Virus record (IMG/VR): IMGVR_UViG_3300048584_000156
Coordinates: 1-38,065 of that record
Reading direction: 5' to 3' (one strand)
Length of the DNA: 38,065 nucleotides
From: a virus
Positions 391-34,970 of the stretch are shown here, piece by piece; the stretch's first letter is position 1; the number at the start of each line of letters is the position of its first letter. The notes under the pieces were generated by a model. It worked only from the letters and a program-made list of their open reading frames with translations. It had not been told where the DNA came from and searched no databases. The translations under genes were made by a program, and so were the position numbers.

Positions 391-3069
391 ATGGAAGAAA
401 GGCTATGCCGAAAAAACGATCCACGCCCGTGGTTCGCGCTGCTGCTGGGAAGTTACCTGGTTTGCGGTATGGTTTTCCTCGGATTCGCCCGGACGCCGTG
501 GCAGGTGGCGCTTGTCGTCGGCACTGCGGTAACTGCGGATTTTATCGGCAATCTCCTCTTGAGAAAACACAAGGGCTTTCCATGGAGTGGGTTGATCACC
601 GGCTGTGGCTTGAGTCTGTTGCTCGACTATGGATCCAATTTCTGGCTACCGCTACTGCCACCCTTGTTAGCGATCGGCTCAAAGCATCTCTTCACGGTGG
701 ACGGCCGCCATGTTTACAATCCGGCCTTGTTCGGCCTGGTCGCCAGTTTGGCAATCGGCGGCGGAATGATTTCCCCGGCGCCGGCTTATCAATGGGGTGG
801 GACCTGGGCGGTTGCTATGTTTTTGGTTGGGTTGGCGTTGGTGGTGTTCATCCCGAGGATCGGGCGTGGTTGGCTGGTTGGCTCGTTTTTGATTTTCTAT
901 ATGATCCAGACGGCATTCCGCGCCTGGGTGATGCGGCATCACGTGCCGCCGGAGGCGATCTGGTTGGGCACGCTCAGCGCACCGGCGTTTTTCCTGTTCA
1001 CCTTTTACATGCTAACGGATCCGGCGACCTCACCGCCAAAACGCGGAGCGCAAATCAGCATCGCCGCAGCGATCACCGTGATCGATCTTGGGTTTCATTT
1101 CCGGCAGAGTTATTACACGTTGTTCTACGCGGCGTTCACGGTGCAGACGGCGCGTTTTGCCTGGGGGTGGTGGCAGCACCGGGCCTTTTTGGACTGGAAG
1201 GAATGGCTCACTCGCGCTGCATTGGCAGCCGGCTTGTGCGGCGTCGCATTCCTGCTGGGCCGCACGCCTAGCGGGATCACGAAGGATCCGGGATTCGCCT
1301 GGGTGGAAATGGAAAAATTTCCATCCGAACAAGGCACCATTCTCACCGACATTGACCCCCGTCTGCAACACGTCGGGAAATGGATCCTCTCGATCGGCGA
1401 CGCGGTGGCGGTAGCGGATGTCGATGGCGACGGCTTGCAGGACGTCTTTCTAACGAGGCCGATGAAGCGTCCGCTGGATCGATGCACGCTTTTCCGCAAC
1501 ACTGGCGGGCTGAGCTTCGAGCGGGTGGAAATCCCCGCGATGGAAAAAATCCGCAACGATCCGGCAGCCTCCGGCTTGGCATCCTGCGCGGTTTTCGCCG
1601 ACATCGAGAACGATGGCGACCAGGATCTCTTCCTCGGCATCGGCTTCGGTAAGAGTCGTCTCTTCCGCAACGAACTGATGGAAACGGGGAAACCCGCTTT
1701 TACCGATGTCACCGAAGCGGGTGGCATCCTCGGGCATCACACCTGTGTCGCTGCAATGTTTTTCGATCCGGATCGCGACGGCGATCTCGACCTCCTGCTA
1801 GGCAACTCTCTCACGCCCTATCTTCCCGACTATGCCGAGCTCACGCCGCTCAATCCCTTCCGCCTGCCACAGCCAGCGTATGAGGGCGACCGGCGGATGT
1901 TCCACTTCATGCATCAGAGCTGGCACCAGGCGTCTAACGGTGGGTTGAACCAGTTTTACCGCAACCGTGGCGACGGGCATTTCGTTCTCGAAGACATCGT
2001 GAAGCTCGGCATGCCGGAAACCCACTGGACGCTTGCGCTAAACTCCGCGGACTTTGATGGCGACGGCTGGCCGGACGTTTACGCGGCCTCGGATTTTGGA
2101 CCAGACGATGTTTACATGAATGAGAAGGGCAAAGGTTTCCGGCGGATCGAAGGCGCTCATTTCGGCTCGATCGGACGAGATACTTACAAGGGGATGAATG
2201 CGAGCATCGCCGACTTCGACCGCAACGGCACGCCTGACATTTACGTTTCCAACGTTCATGCGCCGATGCAGGCGGAGGGGAGTCTGTTATGGATGACGGA
2301 GCGCACGCAAAACGGCGTTGTCTTCCGCAATGACGCGTCCAGTCGTGGCGCGTTAAACCCATTCCGCTTCGGCTGGGGCGCGGGAGCGATGGACCTCGAC
2401 CTCGACGGATGGACGGACTTGGTGCAGGCAAATGGCATGGTGGACGACCACATGGACCGCAAGTTTCCGAACCCCCGTGACTATTGGTATGTCAACGGCC
2501 AGGTCGCCCGCAGCGGCCCGGAAGTCCACGCCTACGCCGACCGCTGGGGCGACACACGCGGTTACACGATCTGGGGAACCCAGGCGAACCGTGTGTTGTT
2601 GAATCGCGGCGGAATCTTCCATGAAGCCGCGGAAATCACCGATCTAACAAGACTCGGAAACACGCGTGGAGTTGCGCTCGCCGATTTCGACAACGACGGT
2701 GATCCGGACCTGGTGCTGACCCGGCAGTTTGATTCCGTGCTTTTCTACGAGAATCATCGTAGCAAACCTGCCGCATGGGCCGGTTTCGAGGTGATGGGCG
2801 ACGGCAAAACAGTTAGTTCGGATCCAGTCGGCAGTGTGTTGGAAATTTCCCGCAAGGGCGAACGCTGGCACTCCGACGTGCTGAATGTCTCCGGCTTCTC
2901 CGCCCAAGGCGACCGCCGCGTGGTGGTCGGGCTTGGGGCGGATTCGTCACCGGTGCAGGTGAGTGTCCGCTGGCTTGATGGCAGCAAACAAGACCTCGGA
3001 GTTTTCGAAAGCGGGAAATACCACCGCATCCACAAGGCCTCTTCACTCACTCCGGTCTCCGTCCGATAA
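391..3069 (+). CDS. RnfD/NqrB-like membrane domain fused to FG-GAP repeats and ASPIC/UnbV domain (host gene)
   Basis: 892-aa host protein. Residues about 15-300 hold around eight hydrophobic segments with the RnfD/NqrB hallmarks of a NPALFG motif and a MLTDPATSP motif near residue 210. A large predicted extracytoplasmic part follows, with at least seven FG-GAP/VCBS calcium-binding loops of DxDxDG type (for example VADVDGDGLQD, SADFDGDGWPD, LADFDNDGDPD). The last about 90 residues match the ASPIC/UnbV domain (SGFSAQGD then VVVGLGAD). The covalent-flavin SGAT motif of true RnfD is not seen, so electron transport is doubtful; the membrane part may only anchor the propeller outside. The ATG at 391 is the first start giving a plausible N-terminus. 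The gene ends 67 bp before the candidate phage end and looks intact. Domain assignment is strong; biological role is unknown. Confidence 0.85.
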   Translation: MEERLCRKNDPRPWFALLLGSYLVCGMVFLGFARTPWQVALVVGTAVTADFIGNLLLRKHKGFPWSGLITGCGLSLLLDYGSNFWLPLLPPLLAIGSKHLFTVDGRHVYNPALFGLVASLAIGGGMISPAPAYQWGGTWAVAMFLVGLALVVFIPRIGRGWLVGSFLIFYMIQTAFRAWVMRHHVPPEAIWLGTLSAPAFFLFTFYMLTDPATSPPKRGAQISIAAAITVIDLGFHFRQSYYTLFYAAFTVQTARFAWGWWQHRAFLDWKEWLTRAALAAGLCGVAFLLGRTPSGITKDPGFAWVEMEKFPSEQGTILTDIDPRLQHVGKWILSIGDAVAVADVDGDGLQDVFLTRPMKRPLDRCTLFRNTGGLSFERVEIPAMEKIRNDPAASGLASCAVFADIENDGDQDLFLGIGFGKSRLFRNELMETGKPAFTDVTEAGGILGHHTCVAAMFFDPDRDGDLDLLLGNSLTPYLPDYAELTPLNPFRLPQPAYEGDRRMFHFMHQSWHQASNGGLNQFYRNRGDGHFVLEDIVKLGMPETHWTLALNSADFDGDGWPDVYAASDFGPDDVYMNEKGKGFRRIEGAHFGSIGRDTYKGMNASIADFDRNGTPDIYVSNVHAPMQAEGSLLWMTERTQNGVVFRNDASSRGALNPFRFGWGAGAMDLDLDGWTDLVQANGMVDDHMDRKFPNPRDYWYVNGQVARSGPEVHAYADRWGDTRGYTIWGTQANRVLLNRGGIFHEAAEITDLTRLGNTRGVALADFDNDGDPDLVLTRQFDSVLFYENHRSKPAAWAGFEVMGDGKTVSSDPVGSVLEISRKGERWHSDVLNVSGFSAQGDRRVVVGLGADSSPVQVSVRWLDGSKQDLGVFESGKYHRIHKASSLTPVSVR

Positions 3070-24409: not shown

Positions 24410-24615
24410 AAAGTTTCTTCTCCGATCTCTGATCCCTGATCCCTGATCTCCGCTTTCTCTTCCCTCAGTCGTTCCACCGCCTCTGCCAGGCACACGCCTA
24501 ACAAGCTGCCCGTGATTCCATTCTCATCCGCACCCATCGCCAGGCACCCGATCAACTCACTCAGCTCCGCGCCCGTCATAGACCGGACCGCTTCCTGGAA
24601 CCGGGTGAGGCTCAT
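24406..24615 (-). CDS. Small phage protein, unassigned
   Basis: 69 aa, coupled by ATGA to both neighbours. Residues 1-50 look helical (LTRFQEAVRSMTGAELSELIGCLAMGADENGITG). The C-terminal part (EEKAEIRDQGSEIGEETL) is encoded by four GATCYCY-type heptamers. Family not recognised. Confidence 0.55.
   Translation of the reverse strand: MSLTRFQEAVRSMTGAELSELIGCLAMGADENGITGSLLGVCLAEAVERLREEKAEIRDQGSEIGEETL
24424..24451 (-). repeat. GATCYCY heptamer run inside coding sequence
   Basis: On the + strand GATCTCT, GATCCCT, GATCCCT, GATCTCC: four contiguous 7-bp units, overlapping the 3' end of the 69-aa gene. The same motif family appears at 30553-30594 on the other module. Confidence 0.8.
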
Positions 24616-26358: not shown

Positions 26359-26368
26359 TATTCTTCCT

Positions 26369-26417
26369 CACTTCTCACTTCTCACTTCTAACTTCTCACT
26401 TCTCACTTCTCACTTCT
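26369..26417. repeat. CACTTCT heptamer array, 7 units
   Basis: Seven contiguous 7-bp units (CACTTCT, one AACTTCT), the longest run in the window. It lies between two - strand regulatory genes, so on the transcribed sense strand the unit reads AGAAGTG and gives TGA in all three frames. Confidence 0.9.
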
Positions 26418-26466
26418 CACCCGCCACTTCTTCACCTCCCCCACGGCCCCACGATCACGTTCCCGG

Positions 26467-27696: not shown

Positions 27697-27717
27697 CTGA
27701 ACACTGAACACTGAACA
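27697..27717 (+). repeat. CTGAACA heptamer run
   Basis: Three exact contiguous CTGAACA units followed by CTAAC. Unlike the other runs of this type it is not followed within 15 bp by the expected leader; that leader resumes at 28135, suggesting an insertion here. Confidence 0.85.
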
Positions 27718-27771
27718 CTAACGCCGATGTGCTGGCACCCGCTGGCGAGAAAACTCCAACAACGAAAACCG

Positions 27772-28689
27772 ATGTCTGATACCGAAAACCTCAACGAAGC
27801 CACTGATAGCGGGTTGCTCCAGCCACGCCTTGTTCGGCTGGCGTTCGACGCGCTATCCGAGGACCTCTCCGACAGGCGCGGATTGAAATGGGAATGGGCG
27901 AAGGTAGATGACGACGTGATGCAGGAAGAGATCCGCCCGGCATGGGAAGCGATCATCTCGGAATGCGTCCGCAAGCACCTCGAAAGCTTGGACGGCGAGT
28001 GCGTCGTGGATCACCGGGACGGCTATCAATACGCTGGACCATTCAAGGACGATGGACTCGCCCGCGAATGGATCGCGCTGCAACCAAACCGCGAGCAACT
28101 GCGGCTGGTGATGAACGCGAAAATTCCTCTGCCGAACAACTCAAAACCACCCATGAACACCACTCCCGCCACCGGCCCCGTCGCCGCCGCCATCACCCGC
28201 TGCATGGAAACCACCGCCTCACACCTCCTCGACCGTGCAAGCCAATCCACTGGCCCTGCCCATACCGCCCAGGACGCCGGGCAATTCACCCCATGGTTCA
28301 CTGCCTCTCCCGCAGCCAGCCAAGCGCTTCTGGATGCTGTTCGCCGCCGCGTTCTGCATGCAACCACATGCCCTGGCAGCCGTCAGACTCCCACGTCTTC
28401 ACCAGCGCCCACTCCAACACTTCCTGCAGGCTCACTGGTGGCAGAATGTCCTCCTCAAACTTCGCCATCCCCAGTTGCAGCGCCCAGTCCACTCGCCGCC
28501 TCAGTAGCCACTCTTCCAGCGGAGTCATGGGCTGCCGTTCCGGCCCGGCTAAAAGTGCCTGAATTTTCGCGGAGAGCGTATGCCGCGTTCGCATCTCTTC
28601 TCGGCATGCCGTCATCCAGAACGCTTCCGTCCGTTCCTCTTCCACCGGCAGTAACTCCACCGGCCACTCATGACTCAGGCTGCCAGTGA
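27772..28689 (+). CDS. Composite ORF: inserted N-terminal segment read through into an older gene
   Basis: 305 aa from ATG 27772. Residues 1-120 (SGLLQPRLVRLAFDALSEDLSDRRG...DDDVMQEEIRPAWEAIISECVRKHL) look like a genuine soluble protein. Residues from M128 (ATG 28153) start a second reading unit with its own duplicated leader. After about residue 175 the translation is Pro/Ala/Ser-rich and probably only the shadow of the - strand gene 28298-28738. The first part appears to be an insert lacking its own stop. No family is recognised. The true C-terminus is uncertain. Confidence 0.4.
   Translation: MSDTENLNEATDSGLLQPRLVRLAFDALSEDLSDRRGLKWEWAKVDDDVMQEEIRPAWEAIISECVRKHLESLDGECVVDHRDGYQYAGPFKDDGLAREWIALQPNREQLRLVMNAKIPLPNNSKPPMNTTPATGPVAAAITRCMETTASHLLDRASQSTGPAHTAQDAGQFTPWFTASPAASQALLDAVRRRVLHATTCPGSRQTPTSSPAPTPTLPAGSLVAECPPQTSPSPVAAPSPLAASVATLPAESWAAVPARLKVPEFSRRAYAAFASLLGMPSSRTLPSVPLPPAVTPPATHDSGCQ
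28135..28157 (+). repeat. Duplicated 23-bp leader, copy 1 of 2
   Basis: 23 bp containing AACAACTCAAAACCACCC and the ATG at 28153 are identical to 28810-28832, the leader of the 56-aa gene. It marks the right border of the putative insertion 27723-28137. Confidence 0.85.
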
Positions 28690-28738
28690 TGAGCTGCAAC
28701 ACCTCCGTGAAATCCAACCAGAAATAAGCGCTTTCCAT
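28298..28738 (-). CDS. Antisense accessory gene in the early operon, unassigned
   Basis: 146 aa from ATG 28738 (MESAYFWLDFTEVLQL); the upstream in-frame ATG at 28774 only adds a Gly/Trp repeat. The translation is protein-like and acidic, with many Trp and Leu (WMTACREEMRTRH, PMTPLEEWLLRRRVDWALQLG, VSLQEVLEWALVKTW), much more natural than the + strand frames here. It is the only - strand gene in the early module, so probably an independent moron. Family not recognised. Confidence 0.55.
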   Translation of the reverse strand: MESAYFWLDFTEVLQLITGSLSHEWPVELLPVEEERTEAFWMTACREEMRTRHTLSAKIQALLAGPERQPMTPLEEWLLRRRVDWALQLGMAKFEEDILPPVSLQEVLEWALVKTWESDGCQGMWLHAERGGEQHPEALGWLRERQ

Positions 28739-28786
28739 CCACCCAGACAACCACCCAACCAACCACCCCGTCAATCCGCCTCTTCC

Positions 28787-28814
28787 CTGAAAACTGAAAA
28801 CTGAACACTAACAA
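28787..28814 (+). repeat. CTGAAAA heptamer run
   Basis: CTGAAAA, CTGAAAA, CTGAACA, CTAACAA: four contiguous units ending 13 bp before the ATG of the 56-aa gene. Confidence 0.9.
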
Positions 28815-28827
28815 CTCAAAACCACCC

Positions 28828-28998
28828 ATGAAACACTACCGCGTCATCACCTTCCCTAACGGCACCGCCGCCCTTCAATCCCGCCGTCCCGGCTTCATCC
28901 CCCGTTGGCTCACCCTCGCCCTCGGCCTCCCCGATCCACTCCGCGCCACCGCCGCCCGTATGGAAGCAGACCGCTCTTCCCTGAAAACCGCACACTGA
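28828..28998 (+). CDS. Small early protein, unassigned
   Basis: 56 aa: MKHYRVITFPNGTAALQSRR then PGFIPRWLTLALGLPDPLRA. Basic, with one amphipathic helix. Follows a heptamer run and duplicated leader. Its last residues (SSLKTAH) and stop codon are encoded by the next heptamer run, so the repeat supplies the gene's end. Family unknown. Confidence 0.55.
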   Translation: MKHYRVITFPNGTAALQSRRPGFIPRWLTLALGLPDPLRATAARMEADRSSLKTAH

Positions 28999-29008
28999 AA
29001 ACTAGCAA
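28981..29008 (+). repeat. CTGAAAA heptamer run, overlaps a gene end
   Basis: CTGAAAA, CCGCACA, CTGAAAA, CTAGCAA: four units, last one ending 11 bp before ATG 29020. Unit 3 supplies the TGA stop of the 56-aa gene. Confidence 0.85.
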
Positions 29009-29019
29009 CTATCCAATCC

Positions 29020-29316
29020 ATGCCCGAGCACACCCTCACCGACGACGACGACGATGCCGCCATCACGGAAGCCATCGCTTCTGAAGTCGTCGCCCGTGTC
29101 GAGCGCTCGCACCCCCATGCCTCCCCCGCCTTCTGGCGTCTGTTAGTCCGCCTCTACACCCTCCAGGCCTGTGGCAAGCTCCCCCCTCCAGGCATCATCT
29201 CCGACCAACAGCTTGCCGACCACCTCGGCATGGACTTCCGCCGCCTCTCGGAAACCCGCCTCACCGCCCTCACCAAAGCCTATCTCCACATCCGCAAACA
29301 CCACCCCGAACTCTAA
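29020..29316 (+). CDS. Small early protein, unassigned
   Basis: 98 aa. Acidic start (LTDDDDDAAITEAIASEV), then helical AFWRLLVRLYTLQACGKLPPPGIISDQQLADHLGMDFRRLSETRL, which looks like an HTH region (DQQLADHLGMDFRRLSETRLTAL). A DNA-binding role in early regulation or transposition is possible; not a recognised family. Confidence 0.55.
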   Translation: MPEHTLTDDDDDAAITEAIASEVVARVERSHPHASPAFWRLLVRLYTLQACGKLPPPGIISDQQLADHLGMDFRRLSETRLTALTKAYLHIRKHHPEL

Positions 29317-29337
29317 CCACCCACCAACACCACCACC

Positions 29338-29568
29338 ATGTCAGCCCGCATCCCACATCTCCTCACCCACCTCCTATCCTCCGCCGATCTCGACGCCCTG
29401 CGCACCGAGATGCTCGATAAAGCCAGCACCCTCACCGGCCCCGCCTGCGAGGCTTGGATGGACGCCGTCATCCTCCTGGACAAGCGCCGCAGCGAGTCCT
29501 TCCAACGCAGCGCCAAGGCCACCCCCAGCGCCCGCCGCAAGTCCCTCGGCCTCCGCTACACCCGCTAA
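29338..29568 (+). CDS. Small early protein, unassigned
   Basis: 76 aa, 21 bp after the previous gene. Helical (LLTHLLSSADLDALRTEML, ACEAWMDAVILLDKRR) with a basic C-terminus (SARRKSLGLRYTR). A repeat block follows at once. Function unknown. Confidence 0.5.
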   Translation: MSARIPHLLTHLLSSADLDALRTEMLDKASTLTGPACEAWMDAVILLDKRRSESFQRSAKATPSARRKSLGLRYTR

Positions 29569-29577
29569 CTCCTCTTC

Positions 29578-29649
29578 CACTTCTCACTCGTCACTTCTCA
29601 CTCGTCACTTCTGCCTCTTCCCTGAAAACTGAACACTGAAAACTAGCAA
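29578..29649 (+). repeat. Double repeat block: CACTTCT run followed by CTGAAAA run
   Basis: 29578-29612 holds CACTTCT/CACTCGT alternating (5 units); 29622-29649 holds CTGAAAA, CTGAACA, CTGAAAA, CTAGCAA (4 units). The only place where both classes occur together. The block ends 8 bp before ATG 29658. Confidence 0.9.
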
Positions 29650-29657
29650 CTCTCCGT

Positions 29658-29831
29658 ATGAACTCCATCCAACGCCGCGCTCACTTAGCTCTCGCCATCC
29701 AAGGCCCCTTTTCCCGCAACCGCCGCACCGGCCTCATCCGCCGTGGTAATCTCGGCACCCTCTTCGCCCTGCTCTGCCTCGGCACCATCAGCTCCATCAT
29801 CACCATCCTCCTCATCGCCATCCTCCTCTAA
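29658..29831 (+). CDS. Small membrane protein
   Basis: 57 aa: basic N-terminus (MNSIQRRAHLALAIQGPFSR, then NRRTGLIRRGN) and one C-terminal transmembrane helix (LGTLFALLCLGTISSIITIL, ending LLIAILL). A positive-inside small membrane protein; could be a superinfection or host-takeover factor. Ends 1 bp before the next start (TAACATG). Confidence 0.55.
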   Translation: MNSIQRRAHLALAIQGPFSRNRRTGLIRRGNLGTLFALLCLGTISSIITILLIAILL

Positions 29832-29832
29832 C

Positions 29833-30129
29833 ATGGATATCACCGACATCCTCGCTGCCGTCAGCGCCATCACCAGCGTCGCTCCCTCCGATATCATCTC
29901 TTTCATCGGCACTCGCGCCACCGCCCTCTCACGCTTTCTCACCATCGCCGCCATCAAAGCCAGATACCCACTCTTGAGCAACGCCGAGATCGCCCCTGTC
30001 TTCCGCCTCGACCCCACTAGCATTCGTTACGCCACGCAGCGCCACAACCACCTCCTGCAGGCGGACCCCGCCTACTCCCAAGCCTGGACCCGCCTCCAGT
30101 CCGACCTCTCCTCTTCCACTTCTCACTGA
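29833..30129 (+). CDS. DnaA domain IV-like DNA-binding protein
   Basis: 98 aa from ATG 29833; an upstream frame overlaps the membrane protein and is rejected. Residues 1-75 have the pattern of the DnaA C-terminal (box-binding) domain: ILAAVSAITSVAPSDIISF, RATALSRFLTIAAIKARYP, NAEIAPVFRLDPTSIRYATQRH. In DnaA the equivalent RxxDHxTVxHA signature reads here LDPTSIRYATQR. The last six residues (SSSTSH) and stop are encoded by a heptamer run. Might bind DnaA-box-like sites; inference only. Confidence 0.55.
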   Translation: MDITDILAAVSAITSVAPSDIISFIGTRATALSRFLTIAAIKARYPLLSNAEIAPVFRLDPTSIRYATQRHNHLLQADPAYSQAWTRLQSDLSSSTSH

Positions 30130-30151
30130 TCACTTCTCACTCGGCACTCCT
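30117..30151 (+). repeat. CACTTCT heptamer run
   Basis: CACTTCT, CACTGAT, CACTTCT, CACTCGG, CACTCCT: five units. The second provides the TGA stop of the DnaA-IV-like gene; the run ends 4 bp before ATG 30156. Confidence 0.85.
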
Positions 30152-30155
30152 CACC

Positions 30156-30479
30156 ATGCTCTACCTCATCGACATCACCTGGCACCGCCGCACCCCTGAA
30201 ACCGGCCGCCCCCAAACCGGCATCGAAACAGTGCCCATCGCAGGCCGATCATTGGCGGACGCCAAGAGCAAAGCCTTTAAGAAATTCAACCTCCATTACG
30301 GAATGCACCTCGCCATCCAGCAGGTCTCCGAAAAACAAGACCCCGCCGCTATCCACACCACACCCTTCAAGCGCATCGACTGCGGATCCGGCCACGACTT
30401 CGGCATCTGCCCCAAGTGCCACAAAGGCCACGGCATAGTCCTCATGGAGCGCGGCAAATTATCCCCCGCATTCGCCTAA
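30156..30479 (+). CDS. Small early protein with a CxxC motif, unassigned
   Basis: 107 aa. N-terminal strand-rich part (MLYLIDITWHRRTPETG, TVPIAGRSLADAKSKAF) and a C-terminal DCGSGHDFGICPKCHKGHG segment that could bind zinc. Possibly a DNA- or protein-binding adaptor. Family not recognised. Confidence 0.55.
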   Translation: MLYLIDITWHRRTPETGRPQTGIETVPIAGRSLADAKSKAFKKFNLHYGMHLAIQQVSEKQDPAAIHTTPFKRIDCGSGHDFGICPKCHKGHGIVLMERGKLSPAFA

Positions 30480-30492
30480 CCCGGAACTCTTC

Positions 30493-30527
30493 CACTTCAC
30501 ACTTTCCACTTCTCACTCGTCACTCCA
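30493..30527 (+). repeat. CACTTCT heptamer run
   Basis: CACTTCA, CACTTTC, CACTTCT, CACTCGT, CACTCCA: five units ending 7 bp before ATG 30535. Confidence 0.85.
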
Positions 30528-30534
30528 ATCCACC

Positions 30535-31296
30535 ATGCCTGCCAAGTCTTCCCATCTCTCATCCCCGATCTCCAATCCCCGATCTCCAATCTCTTCCGAA
30601 GTCGAGATCGTCACCGCCGCCCAAGTCTCCACTGCCGAGCTAGCAGGCCTCGCCCAAGCCATCACCCGCAGCCGGGAAATCATCCACCAGCACGAACAAC
30701 TCTGCCACGAGACCACCCTCGAGCACTACCTCGACGCCGGTCAAATGCTCGCCAGGGCACAGGAGATCTTCACCCTGTCTCACAGCGCTGCAGGAGCGCT
30801 GAAGGGGAAGTCCTCAGAAAGCCTGTCCACGGTGGACAAGCTTCCTGAGACTCCCCCCGAGATCCTCGCCAACCGAGGATTCTCCGCCTGGCTCGCCAAG
30901 GAAATCCCCACTTTAAAGCGTCCCACCGCCATCCGCTACGCCACCGCCTTCCGTTCCCTGGAACTCCCCTTGGACGCCAAGCCCGCAGCTATCCGTGCCA
31001 AGGTCAAGACCCTCCGCCACGAGGCAGGCAAGGCCGGGGCACCCATGCCCACCCTCGCCGCCCTGCTCAAGACCGCGCCTAAGCCGCCGGAGCCGGAAAC
31101 CCTAATTGTTCTGATGCCCAAGTCATCCAAACAACTCAAGCTGGAGGATGCCCGCGAGATCTTCCACCTCTGGATGGAATCGTGGGACAAAGCGCTCAAA
31201 CAAGGCCACCTCGAACACCTCGACCGCAATGGCCTCGAACAGCTCAAGGACTTCACCGCCACCGTCCGCGACCGCATCAACGCCAGACTGAAGTAA
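30535..31296 (+). CDS. Pre-transposase early protein (DUF3102-like?)
   Basis: 253 aa, five bp before the transposase gene. Residues 35-130 are helical (LAGLAQAITRSREIIHQHEQ...TLEHYLDAGQMLARAQEIF), then GFSAWLAKEIPTLKRPTAIRYATAF, which recalls DUF3102/phage regulatory proteins with a WL...S-x-x-TA-x-RY motif. N-terminal residues 6-20 come from a GATCTCC-type heptamer run. Could regulate or assist transposition. Family match is tentative. Confidence 0.6.
   Translation: MPAKSSHLSSPISNPRSPISSEVEIVTAAQVSTAELAGLAQAITRSREIIHQHEQLCHETTLEHYLDAGQMLARAQEIFTLSHSAAGALKGKSSESLSTVDKLPETPPEILANRGFSAWLAKEIPTLKRPTAIRYATAFRSLELPLDAKPAAIRAKVKTLRHEAGKAGAPMPTLAALLKTAPKPPEPETLIVLMPKSSKQLKLEDAREIFHLWMESWDKALKQGHLEHLDRNGLEQLKDFTATVRDRINARLK
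30553..30594 (+). repeat. GATCTCC/AATCCCC heptamer run inside coding sequence
   Basis: CATCTCT, CATCCCC, GATCTCC, AATCCCC, GATCTCC, AATCTCT: six contiguous units encoding HLSSPISNPRSPIS at the start of the 253-aa protein. Same family as 24424-24451. Confidence 0.85.
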
Positions 31297-31301
31297 TTCC
31301 C

Positions 31302-33425
31302 ATGCAACTCTCCATCATCGACTACACCTCGCCCGAGTGGGAATCCCTTCCCTCCTCTCTCCGCACGGAGATTCACGATTGGCTGGAAGCCCTCTACCCG
31401 CCACCGGAGCGCGGCATCACCGCCTGGCTGACGCAAGTGGGCGAATCGATGGGCAAGTCCTACGCCACTGCCCGCCGCAATTACGACGCGCTCCAGGCAT
31501 CCGGTTGGAGCTGGAAAGTGCTCGTCGATGCCCGCAAGACATCGGCGGATGCCGTCATTCTCGACGGCACCGGCTCGCAGGTCTTCCGTGCTTACGTGGT
31601 CGAGCAGGTCGGCAAGTTCAAGCGCAAGAACGTCTCCGCCTTCCGCAAACTCCGCAATGACTTCCGGCGGCGCGATGGCGTGATCCCCGGCTACGAGGGA
31701 TTCCCCGGCTGGCCTAAGACGCCCATCGGTTGGACGGACCGGAATCTTGGCCGCATCGTCAAGGCGGAGACCAACCGCGCCCGCCTCGCGTCCCTCCGCA
31801 TCGGCACGAGCAGCAAGACCAACGAATTTCTCCCCACCGTCCGCACCACCCGCGTGGGCTTGCATCACGGCCAGGTGATCCAGGTGGACGACGTGCGGCA
31901 TGATAACTGGGTCACCCTAGGCAAGAGCGGGAAATACGTCCGCGTCAATGAACTCGGTGCGCTCGACCTTCTATCAGGCCACCGCTTCCAGTGGGGATGC
32001 AAACCCCGCCGCCGCCGGGTGGACAAGTCCTACGAGGACATCAACGGCAGCGACATGCGCCTCTTCACCGCCGGACTCTTCCACCGCTGGGGATACTCGC
32101 CGCATGGCACCATGATCATGAGTGAGCACGCCACCGCCAAGGTGGACGAGCGCATCGCCAAGATCCTCTACGACGCCACCGGCGGCCTGATCCGCGTGGA
32201 CTATCAGCCGATTGAGGGCAAGCAGGCCGCGCTAACAGGATTCTGGAACGGCACGGAAGGCGGAAACTTCCGCGCCAAGGCCTGCCTGGAATCCCTGCAC
32301 AATCTCATTCACAACGATCTATCCGCCCTGCTCATGCAGACCGGTTCGCCATCGTCCGGCCTCAAGGGACCGGTCACCACCGACCGCATCATCGCCTACG
32401 CAGAAGCCATCATGCGCGAGGTGCTGAAAAAGTGCCCTGCCCGTGCCCACCTGCTCAAGCTCCCCGGCATCGACTATCACACGCAGTTCATCCCCTTTCT
32501 GATGGATTACTATCACCACGGCCTCGCCCTGCGGACCGATCATGAAATGGAAGGCTGGGAGAGCCTCAACTACGTGGTAACCGAATACACCGCCCTTCCT
32601 GGATCCAACCACTGGCTGAGCCAAGCGGATTTCCTCAAGCTCCCCGAGCCGTCGCAACTCATCATCGGCAACGCCGTCCGCAATGATCCGCAAAGCTGGT
32701 CGAAGCGCCGCAACCTTTCCCCCCTGGAAGTTTGGAACCAACGGCCCAAGTTCCTGCCCATCCCGCCTGTCACCATCTGTGACATCATCGGCGAGGACAT
32801 GGCCCGAGAGGTTATCGTTAGGAAAGGCTTCGCGGAGTTCGAGGATCAGGAGCTTTCGCCGGATGCGCTCATCTACACCGCCCGCTATGTCACCGGCCCT
32901 AACCGTGGACGCGAGATTCCGCACGGCGAGAAGATCAAGCTCTTCGCCAATCCCTTCGAGGATGGCAGCGCCTTCGTCATCGACGCCCAGGGCCGCTACC
33001 TCGGCCAGCTCCCGCTCTACAAGCGCTTCTGCGCCGTAAACGCCGCTGCCTTCCACACCGACGCCCCCTTCGAAGAGCGCCCGTCCCTCAAGAGCGAAGA
33101 GTTCATCCGCGCCACTGGCGAGAAACATGAACGCATCGCCACCATGCTCGAACCGGACCGCATCAACCACCGCGAGGAAGTCCAGGAAGCCCAAGACCTC
33201 CGCGCCCACAACCGCAAAGTCCTAAAAGGCGAACCCATCACCCCGGAAGAGATCCACGACGCCCGCGTTGCAGCCGGTCAACAAGCCCATCGCACCGCCG
33301 CTGCAAACCGCCTCAGCGATCACGGCCAGCCCATCGACTACGACCTCATCCCCGTCGCCGAAGAGACCTGGCAAGACCCCTTCGCCTGCCTCCCCGAAAC
33401 CAACAACTTCCCCGACTCCATCTGA
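31302..33425 (+). CDS. MuA-like DDE transposase
   Basis: 707 aa from ATG 31302, 5 bp after the previous stop. Integrase core: first acidic pair D196/D197 in VIQVDDVRHDN; third acidic E330 in KACLESLHNLIHNDL; the second position falls at E275 in MIMSEHATAKVDERI, giving 79- and 55-residue spacings (67 and 56 in MuA). The N-terminal 130 residues contain GKSYATARRNYDALQASG, an HTH-like region for end or enhancer binding. The C-terminal part (630-707) is charged and may contact the MuB-like ATPase. Catalyses replicative transposition of the phage. The D-to-E second residue is unusual and could be a misaligned neighbour. Confidence 0.8.
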   Translation: MQLSIIDYTSPEWESLPSSLRTEIHDWLEALYPPPERGITAWLTQVGESMGKSYATARRNYDALQASGWSWKVLVDARKTSADAVILDGTGSQVFRAYVVEQVGKFKRKNVSAFRKLRNDFRRRDGVIPGYEGFPGWPKTPIGWTDRNLGRIVKAETNRARLASLRIGTSSKTNEFLPTVRTTRVGLHHGQVIQVDDVRHDNWVTLGKSGKYVRVNELGALDLLSGHRFQWGCKPRRRRVDKSYEDINGSDMRLFTAGLFHRWGYSPHGTMIMSEHATAKVDERIAKILYDATGGLIRVDYQPIEGKQAALTGFWNGTEGGNFRAKACLESLHNLIHNDLSALLMQTGSPSSGLKGPVTTDRIIAYAEAIMREVLKKCPARAHLLKLPGIDYHTQFIPFLMDYYHHGLALRTDHEMEGWESLNYVVTEYTALPGSNHWLSQADFLKLPEPSQLIIGNAVRNDPQSWSKRRNLSPLEVWNQRPKFLPIPPVTICDIIGEDMAREVIVRKGFAEFEDQELSPDALIYTARYVTGPNRGREIPHGEKIKLFANPFEDGSAFVIDAQGRYLGQLPLYKRFCAVNAAAFHTDAPFEERPSLKSEEFIRATGEKHERIATMLEPDRINHREEVQEAQDLRAHNRKVLKGEPITPEEIHDARVAAGQQAHRTAAANRLSDHGQPIDYDLIPVAEETWQDPFACLPETNNFPDSI

Positions 33426-33458
33426 CTTCTCACTTCTCACTTCTCACTTCTCACTTCT
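33424..33458 (+). repeat. CACTTCT heptamer run between transposase and ATPase genes
   Basis: GACTTCT followed by four exact CACTTCT units; overlaps the transposase TGA stop by two bases and ends 6 bp before ATG 33465. Confidence 0.9.
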
Positions 33459-33464
33459 ACCCCC

Positions 33465-34547
33465 ATGACCACCGCCATCGCCACCCCAGATCCAGACGAC
33501 GACAACAAACTGCGTCCCGCCACCACCACCACGAATTATAACATCGCCCCCGATCAATTCGAGACCGTCATCACCAAGCTCCCACAGCATCAGCAAGACG
33601 TCATCCGTTGGTGGTATTTCCTCGGCAAGGATCGTGGATGGCCGCTCAACCAACTGGCCAAAGCCTGCGGTTCCAGCTCCACCACCCTCAGCCGCGTCTT
33701 CCGGGGCGAATACGGCGCGGAACTCGACAACCTCTGCAAGAGCCTAACCAAAGCCCGCGAATCCTTCCACGAGACCGTGGATAATCCCGAGTTCATCATG
33801 ACGTCCCTGGCCAAGGAAATGTTCGCCATTAACGACCGCGTCCGCGCCCTCCGCACCGTCGCCATCCTCTATGGTGCCATGGGCATCGGCAAGACCACCG
33901 TCCAGGAGGAATACAAGCACCGCAACAACCACGGCCGCACCATCTACTACCGCTGCGAGCCTGGCATGACGCTCGCTCAGTTCATCAGCTCCCTCGCCGG
34001 TGCCTGTGGCATCAACTTCAAGCACAAGCAAAACCAGCTCCGCATCCGCGAGAAACTCTACACCCTGCTCGCCGCCGGTCAGCGCCTCCTCATCATCGAC
34101 GAGCTTCACCAACTCTTCCTCCGCCGTCCCGGTGCCGATCTCACCCCGGTGCTGCAATGCGAGTTCCTCCGCACCATCTATGACAAGGCCAAGTGCGGCA
34201 TGGTCCTCATCGGCACCCACGCCCTGGAGCGCTACATGATCGACCAACAGAAGATCCTCGCCCAGCTCCTCGACCGTGGCACCATGCCCATCCAGCTCCC
34301 GGACAAGCCCACCGCCGAGGATGCCCGCGCCTTCGTCAAGCACTTCGGCCTGCCTGCTCTAACTTCCAGCGAGCCGGAAGCCGGCGCCATCGTCAAAGAC
34401 ATCCTCACCTCCTCCGGTCTCCGCAAGCTAACCCTCCATCTCCGCGATGGCGCAGCCACCGCCGCCAAGCGTGGCGAGAAATACACCTGGTCGCACTTCT
34501 GCACCGCCTTCGAAGATCTTCAATCACTCGGCAAACGCCGCAAATAA
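33465..34547 (+). CDS. MuB-like AAA+ transposition ATPase
   Basis: 360 aa. N-terminal HTH at about 61-85 (LNQLAKACGSSSTTLSRVFRG). Walker A GAMGIGKTT at 137-145; Walker B LLIIDELH at 208-215; sensor-like VLIGTHALERY near 245. This is the MuB/TniB arrangement: an ATPase that binds target DNA and delivers it to the transposase while giving target immunity. It directly follows the transposase gene, separated only by a heptamer run. Confidence 0.85.
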   Translation: MTTAIATPDPDDDNKLRPATTTTNYNIAPDQFETVITKLPQHQQDVIRWWYFLGKDRGWPLNQLAKACGSSSTTLSRVFRGEYGAELDNLCKSLTKARESFHETVDNPEFIMTSLAKEMFAINDRVRALRTVAILYGAMGIGKTTVQEEYKHRNNHGRTIYYRCEPGMTLAQFISSLAGACGINFKHKQNQLRIREKLYTLLAAGQRLLIIDELHQLFLRRPGADLTPVLQCEFLRTIYDKAKCGMVLIGTHALERYMIDQQKILAQLLDRGTMPIQLPDKPTAEDARAFVKHFGLPALTSSEPEAGAIVKDILTSSGLRKLTLHLRDGAATAAKRGEKYTWSHFCTAFEDLQSLGKRRK

Positions 34548-34552
34548 TCCCC

Positions 34553-34580
34553 CTGAAAACTGAACACCGAAAACTAGCAA
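34553..34580 (+). repeat. CTGAAAA heptamer run
   Basis: CTGAAAA, CTGAACA, CCGAAAA, CTAGCAA: four units, 6 bp after the MuB-like stop and 6 bp before ATG 34587. Nearly identical to 29622-29649, about 5 kb away. Confidence 0.9.
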
Positions 34581-34586
34581 CTCTCC

Positions 34587-34922
34587 ATGAACACCGCCCT
34601 CATCCTCCGTGACCCCATGCAGCCGCCCATCCATGTCCTCGAATGCGACGGCCCCGCGATCTACCCGATCCCCGACATCCACCGCTATCCCGGCGATTTC
34701 GACGCACGCCCCTACATGTCATTCCAGAATTTCCTCGACCTGCCAGACTACGCCAAAAAACCAGGCCCCTCCACTTGGGAAATGGAACACGCAAACGCCC
34801 GCCGCATCTACCGCCTCATCGAGCACGCAGAGACCGGCTTTAACGTCCTAACACCCTCACAGCTCCAAGAAATCCGCGCCCGCCTCAAGCTCATCGCCCC
34901 CGAGTGCGACCAGGACTTCTGA
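34587..34922 (+). CDS. Early protein, unassigned
   Basis: 111 aa. N-terminal part (PPIHVLECDGPAIYPIPDIHRYPGDFDARPYMSF) is Pro/Asp-rich; C-terminal part is helical (WEMEHANARRIYRLIEHAETGFNVLT). Located in the Mu-like semi-essential early region between B and Gam. Family not recognised. Confidence 0.55.
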   Translation: MNTALILRDPMQPPIHVLECDGPAIYPIPDIHRYPGDFDARPYMSFQNFLDLPDYAKKPGPSTWEMEHANARRIYRLIEHAETGFNVLTPSQLQEIRARLKLIAPECDQDF

Positions 34923-34938
34923 TCTCTCCCTCTTCTTC

Positions 34939-34966
34939 CACTTGTCACTTCTCACTCGCCACTTCT
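34939..34966 (+). repeat. CACTTCT heptamer run
   Basis: CACTTGT, CACTTCT, CACTCGC, CACTTCT: four units ending 4 bp before ATG 34971. Confidence 0.85.
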
Positions 34967-34970
34967 CACC

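Follow-up and report, generated by a model that had tools for sequence, protein, structure and literature searches.

Heptamer arrays ahead of the small genes of a Mu-like phage as probable solo arms of a dispersed intergenic repeat of its host group

The window analyzed here is the whole 38,065-nucleotide stretch of the IMG/VR virus record IMGVR_UViG_3300048584_000156. It encodes a transposition module along with an anti-repressor-like gene and small genes. The original prediction drew attention to tandem heptamers of the CTGAAAA type located between these genes; arrays of other units occur nearby. The features are as follows.

27697–27724, plus strand: array of three CTGAACA units and CTAACGC, adjoining the ATG of ORF 27727; three frames stopped
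28787–28814, plus strand: array CTGAAAA, CTGAAAA, CTGAACA, CTAACAA; three frames stopped; the ORFs upstream overlap on both strands
28981–29008, plus strand: degenerate array CTGAAAA, CCGCACA, CTGAAAA, CTAGCAA, with the stop of ORF 28828–28998; two frames stopped
29578–29612, plus strand: TCACTTC/TCACTCG array with no sense stops, directly 5′ of the next array
29622–29649, plus strand: array CTGAAAA, CTGAACA, CTGAAAA, CTAGCAA; three frames stopped
29833–30129, plus strand: small gene in a variable slot, with a weak DnaA C-terminal-like match below the cut-off
30489–30517, plus strand: CTTCCAC/TCACTTC-type array, preceding ORF 30535
31302–33425, plus strand: Mu-like transposase gene, a synteny anchor
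33421–33458, plus strand: TCTCACT array between the transposase and ATPase genes
33465–34547, plus strand: DNA transposition ATPase gene (MuB/TniB-like), a synteny anchor
34553–34580, plus strand: array CTGAAAA, CTGAACA, CCGAAAA, CTAGCAA, 5 nt past the transposition ATPase stop; two frames stopped
34587–34922, plus strand: small gene with arrays at both sides; a relative lies elsewhere in the related phage contig L019 (15408)
34935–34969, plus strand: TCACTTC-type array that closes the 34587–34922 cassette

At the left end of the window, a large membrane/VCBS-type ORF (391–3069) does not look like a phage gene, which suggests flanking host DNA there. Two long ORFs, 28298–28774 (minus) and 27727–28689 (plus), overlap on opposite strands, leaving the upstream side of the 28787 array uncertain. 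The minus ORF could be the real gene, in which case the array would lie between divergent genes.

All five CTGAAAA-type arrays are present on the plus strand, far beyond chance. A search with the quoted 28-mer, allowing up to three mismatches, recovers those at 28787, 28981, 29622, and 34553, with none expected from 100 shuffles. The array at 27697 is a different version. Some other arrays in the phage have a period of 8 or 9, not 7. Where phage arrays were examined in context, a start codon follows about 6–22 nt downstream, and the arrays adjoining start codons are all in the sense orientation. Two window leaders were folded, and both are unstructured. In the phage loci examined, no array has an inverted partner within 350 bp downstream. 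No gene for an S23/IVP protein, which becomes important below, was seen in the window or in any of these phage loci, and Rfam gave no match in seven sources at gathering thresholds.

Arrays of other classes are found in regions of minus-strand genes (window 24417–24457 and 26361–26427; L019 4980–5520; related phage L001 880–950 and 1675–1715). There, the pyrimidine-rich strand is still the plus strand, i.e., antisense to the genes. A further heptamer array, ATCTCCA/ATCCCCG, lies inside coding sequence (window 30557–30591; L001 6530–6570). It fuses a shared C-terminal domain to N-termini that differ, that of L001 being an HTH-like stretch and that of the window short, so domain junctions, too, can be marked by an array.

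The exact CTGAAAA pattern is present in genomes of the Verrucomicrobiaceae and Akkermansiaceae. It occurs in 44 of 145 host-family genomes; the count reaches 121 matches in a single genome, and the reversed-pattern control gives almost zero. Where these genomes are metagenome-assembled, their contigs may be chimeric. Almost every array of G031, a complete genome of 4.9 Mb, is intergenic. Of 60 arms, 52 have the CTAGC end closer than the other end to a gene boundary (median 8.5 versus 105 nt; p = 3e-9), where boundaries are the gene calls of a simple script rather than curated annotation; the orientation null gave 0 matches in 151 kb. The CTAGC end faces starts and stops alike. Arrays of opposite orientation at most 600 bp apart are always arranged as AGTTTTCAG...CTGAAAACT; that is, 25 pairs are (−,+) and 0 are (+,−). 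The short inverted pairs have no gene inside, fold as strong hairpins, and lie between operon genes. The long pairs (430–460 bp) enclose an S23/IVP (PF05635) gene in 5 of 5 cases, and from our own reading of the flanking translations we take these pairs, in Verrucomicrobia, to sit at a probable ribonucleotide reductase locus. The array ends TTCC and CTAGCAAACT, which are not part of the repeat, are conserved, and chromosomal solo arms in tight gaps are mostly in the sense orientation. The phage array at 29622 has the same heptamer order and the same CTAGCAA end as the arms flanking one chromosomal S23 gene (L130).

The atpD–atpC spacer offers a view of one site across the host-family genomes. 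Some of them have a hairpin of CTGAAAA, TAACTAA, or TCTCTGG units there, some an array of another kind, and some a plain spacer. The hairpins have z scores of −6.4 to −1.5, to be set beside the unstructured window leaders. No obvious target-site duplication is seen in these spacers; the spacer is replaced, not cleanly interrupted, nor did any precise insertion with target duplication turn up.

Two other features of these chromosomes were noted. The idea that arrays follow one replicon strand came from the phage, where arrays are on the plus strand even near minus-strand genes, and from contig C5 of genome G069. In the first 300,000 bp of that contig (L064–L078), GC skew runs from +0.17 to +0.37 over 300 kb and 13 CTGAAAA arrays all lie on one strand, with genes on both. 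The idea was dropped: the arrays of G031 are on both strands, and their orientation is set by gene boundaries. G031 also has a longer dispersed palindromic element (CCGGCGGCATTGGCGAA ... TTCGCCAATGCCGCCGG; L084, L086, L095, L098, L100, L106, L109, and L118) that carries a near-identical CTGAAAA array internally.

The association of inverted arms with S23 genes extends well beyond the CTGAAAA heptamer. Among 51 PF05635 loci sampled across Verrucomicrobiota, 35 have a flanking inverted repeat scoring at least 14, and 16 score less; the same score is reached by 1 of 102 shifted controls and by none of 127 small genes on a contig rich in arrays. The arms match themselves at lag 7 with a value of 0.72, versus 0.21–0.29 at other lags, and lag 7 is the best in 34 of 35. 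The heptamers differ between loci; the period of 7 is what they have in common. Outside Verrucomicrobiota, in a small survey limited to plasmids, 11 of 13 cyanobacterial and Gemmatimonadota S23 genes have inverted repeats, mostly of cyanobacterial-type heptamers such as CCCTACT, CCCTTTT, CCCTGTT, and TCCTGAC. A first control, in which the left flank from one cyanobacterial plasmid was set against the right flank from another, gave 12 high scores in 156, probably because these plasmids share heptamer families, and we therefore rely on the shifted and small-gene controls. The annotated nrdB–nrdA spacer of a Nostoc plasmid contains an S23 gene. S23 genes with array-like flanks were also seen inside CRISPR-Cas operons (cas6–cas4, cas10–cmr3) of cyanobacterial plasmids (L215, L216, and L217). 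The notion that S23 recognizes its own heptamer was considered and found unsupported, as the identity of S23 has little bearing on the heptamer except among close relatives.

We propose, with a probability of about 0.62, that the phage arrays represent solo arms of an intergenic repeat dispersed through the host group, the full form of which is an inverted pair, and that their stop codons are a by-product. In the full chromosomal element, two heptamer arrays would lie in inverted orientation, the CTAGCAAACT end of each pointing at the neighboring gene from about 8 nt away. Between them would lie either a short loop, giving an ORF-less hairpin between operon genes, or a single gene for an S23/IVP four-helix-bundle protein. 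Such an element would resemble the S23-coding intervening sequences of 23S rRNA but occupy operon spacers. Arms made of many unrelated heptamers would occupy the same kind of site, keeping the 7-bp period and the inverted layout but not the sequence. The phage would keep sense arms only, as unstructured leaders before start codons, and these arms would travel with small genes as cassettes of arm plus ORF. With a stop-bearing heptamer, an arm could overlap the end of the upstream gene or take its place. Insertion, template switching, or recombination may spread the arms, the hairpins may undergo processing of the RNase III type, and the arms may play a mild leader role in translation.

This proposal builds on the observed dispersal, orientation rules, inverted pairing, and S23 association, and on changes of array type at orthologous sites, described next. 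The step from the phage's solo arms to the S23 elements is suggested by their identical sequence and shared position rules. Several observations count against the proposal: some G031 arrays sit within the longer palindromic repeat instead, the phage loci examined show neither inverted partners nor S23 genes, 16 of the 51 S23 genes fall below the score of 14, some phage arrays have periods of 8 or 9, precise insertions with target duplication did not turn up, and the heptamer cannot be predicted from the S23 sequence.

The phages compared amount to a handful of contigs, syntenic with the window: L001/L024, L019 (transposase 83% identical), L020, L002, and others. At equivalent intergenic sites, they carry arrays of CTCAAAT, TTCGATG, TCACTTC, an 8-mer, or a 9-mer, or none. 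The site before a small membrane-protein gene (29658) is occupied by TCACTTC and CTGAAAA arrays in the window, CTCAAAT in L001, the CATTTCAG 8-mer in L019, and CTGAAAA in L020. The transposase–ATPase site has TCTCACT in the window, CTCAAAT in L001, CTGAAAA in L002, and no array in L019 or L020. The genes vary too. In L002, the slot between the membrane-protein gene and gene 30535 is filled by an ACP-like gene (Pfam PF00550); L020 has an unrelated gene there. CTGAAAA arrays border each of these two genes at both edges. The same slot holds two other genes in the window, one of those in L019, and an ACP-like gene in L001. Gene 34587, bounded by CTGAAAA and TCACTTC arrays, is absent, arrays included, at that site in L001 and L019. 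Thus, arrays often mark the edges of swapped genes.

That the arrays might serve as tracts for cassette exchange was part of the original prediction, which called for a comparison of related phages. Read as an explanation in its own right, near-identical arrays let the phage swap small genes by recombination. The replacement of one gene by another within CTGAAAA arrays in L002 and L020, and the absence of gene 34587 with its arrays from L001 and L019 at that site, partly bear out the cassette boundary; passage of recombination through the arrays themselves would be a further step. At about 30 bp, the tracts offer little length for homologous recombination; several of the swapped genes are flanked by an array at one side only or by arrays of another type, and the comparisons are few. 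We regard this explanation as possible, at somewhat worse than even odds. It is compatible with the solo-arm proposal, as a consequence of it, and that proposal in turn explains why the same short repeats lie at the edges of small swapped phage genes.

Rather less probable is that the arrays are translational leaders or regulator sites, in which an unstructured heptamer replaces the Shine–Dalgarno sequence or binds a protein (S1, Csp, or CsrA), as proposed for the TAACTGA repeats discussed below. The spacing of phage arrays before start codons, the lack of structure in both folded leaders, the sense bias of chromosomal solos in tight gaps, and the same pattern in Beggiatoaceae all agree with such a role. 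A dedicated leader is harder to reconcile with array types that swap freely at one site and with antisense arms that follow stop codons.

The original prediction also offered an all-frame translation insulator. On this view, the arrays would be under selection because three TGA units close each sense frame from one small cassette to the next. The period-7 arithmetic holds: a run of three intact CTGANNN units does close every frame. Each array was said to do so, but only three of the five in the window do; the 28981 array, with CCGCACA as its second unit, and the 34553 array, with CCGAAAA as its third, have lost one frame each. An array does supply the stop of an upstream ORF in L002, in L020, and in the window, where the TGA at 28996–28998 ends a 56-aa ORF as predicted. 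Among the fetched loci, no relative of that ORF was found, so it may not be a gene. At other arrays, as in most cases, the upstream gene has its own stop ahead of the array, e.g., by 5 nt at 34553. The uniform sense orientation of phage arrays beside start codons would suit an insulator, whereas half of each host inverted pair is an antisense, stop-free arm. CTCAAAT, TTCGATG, TCACTTC, and 8-mer units are free of sense stops, the ATAAGTCCT 9-mer closes a single frame, and TGATCAC closes all three. Since equivalent sites in relatives carry mostly stop-free arrays or none, the stops are not the conserved property of the arrays. They look incidental, a by-product of the CTGAAAA heptamer as for TAACTGA, and we consider insulation very improbable.

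Least likely of all are neutral simple-sequence repeats born of replication slippage and unconnected to any element: unit number does vary, and in many bacteria no other long simple repeat is as common as the heptamer (work by Mrazek, as cited in PMC4679880), but slippage does not account for the fixed outward orientation, the 25:0 pairing, the conserved non-repeat ends TTCC and CTAGCAAACT, or the S23 association.

The closest described system is the set of TAACTGA direct repeats, found between genes in Beggiatoaceae, Cyanobacteria, and Bacteroidetes (MacGregor 2015, PMC4679880). These are also heptamers, intergenic, mostly located just before start codons that lack a ribosome-binding site, with sense stops in all frames, some of which overlap the upstream stop. 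They differ in heptamer and hosts, the unit of the window being CTGAAAA/CTGAACA, and neither outward-facing inverted pairs nor an S23 association is described for them in PMC4679880. The window arrays have the makings of heptamer direct repeats, being tandem 7-bp units in at least two copies, intergenic, and present at many loci. They are of the TAACTGA/STRR kind but form a family separate from TAACTGA. The short tandemly repeated repetitive (STRR) heptamers of cyanobacteria likewise consist of 7-bp tandem units, occur as several families per genome, and are intergenic. The hosts differ, and the CTGAAAA arrays are tied to S23 genes and an inverted layout, which is also true of most of the S23 genes tested on cyanobacterial plasmids.

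Intervening sequences of 23S rRNA share long-stem terminal inverted repeats and an S23 ORF in a subset of members. In Coxiella burnetii, the S23-encoding intervening sequence has heptameric GACAGAT repeats before the ORF, and RNase III cuts at the first of them (PMC4990558); the heptameric repeats are thus a further likeness. In the elements described here, stem-forming terminal inverted repeats are present in chromosomes and absent in the phages examined, and the S23/IVP ORF is found in a subset of chromosomal and plasmid loci. The difference is one of place and content: our elements lie in operon spacers, many with no ORF, and the window and annotated loci are between protein genes (nrdB–nrdA, cas6–cas4, and atpD–atpC), not inside 23S rRNA. 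REP/BIME and MITE-type palindromic repeats are similarly short, dispersed, inverted, and located between operon genes. Here, the arms are heptamer arrays, and a non-systematic search found no REP consensus, transposase partner, or target duplication.

Reports of heptamer repeats in many bacteria go back decades; to our knowledge, none of the origins suggested for them has gained acceptance, and we know of no function for S23/IVP proteins outside rRNA insertions. In the open-access literature, no paper was found that links S23 genes as a whole with heptamer arrays. The period-7 arms of S23 genes in Verrucomicrobiota and on cyanobacterial plasmids, together with the Coxiella heptamers, suggest that heptamer arrays may largely be the ends of intervening-sequence-like elements. 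In its broadest form, which we put forward tentatively and rate a little short of an even chance, many bacterial heptamer repeats (STRR, long simple heptamers, and phage leaders) would be ends, or solo ends, of a single widespread class of such elements, encoding the S23/IVP four-helix-bundle protein or derived from elements that do. These would insert in polycistronic transcripts as hairpins, their sequence drifting while the period of 7 and the inversion are kept. For the phage, a special stop-codon insulator is no longer needed to explain the arrays. For the wider family, the link between S23 and heptamers makes it possible to test what moves these elements, what use S23 makes of the stem, and whether operon transcripts are cut there.
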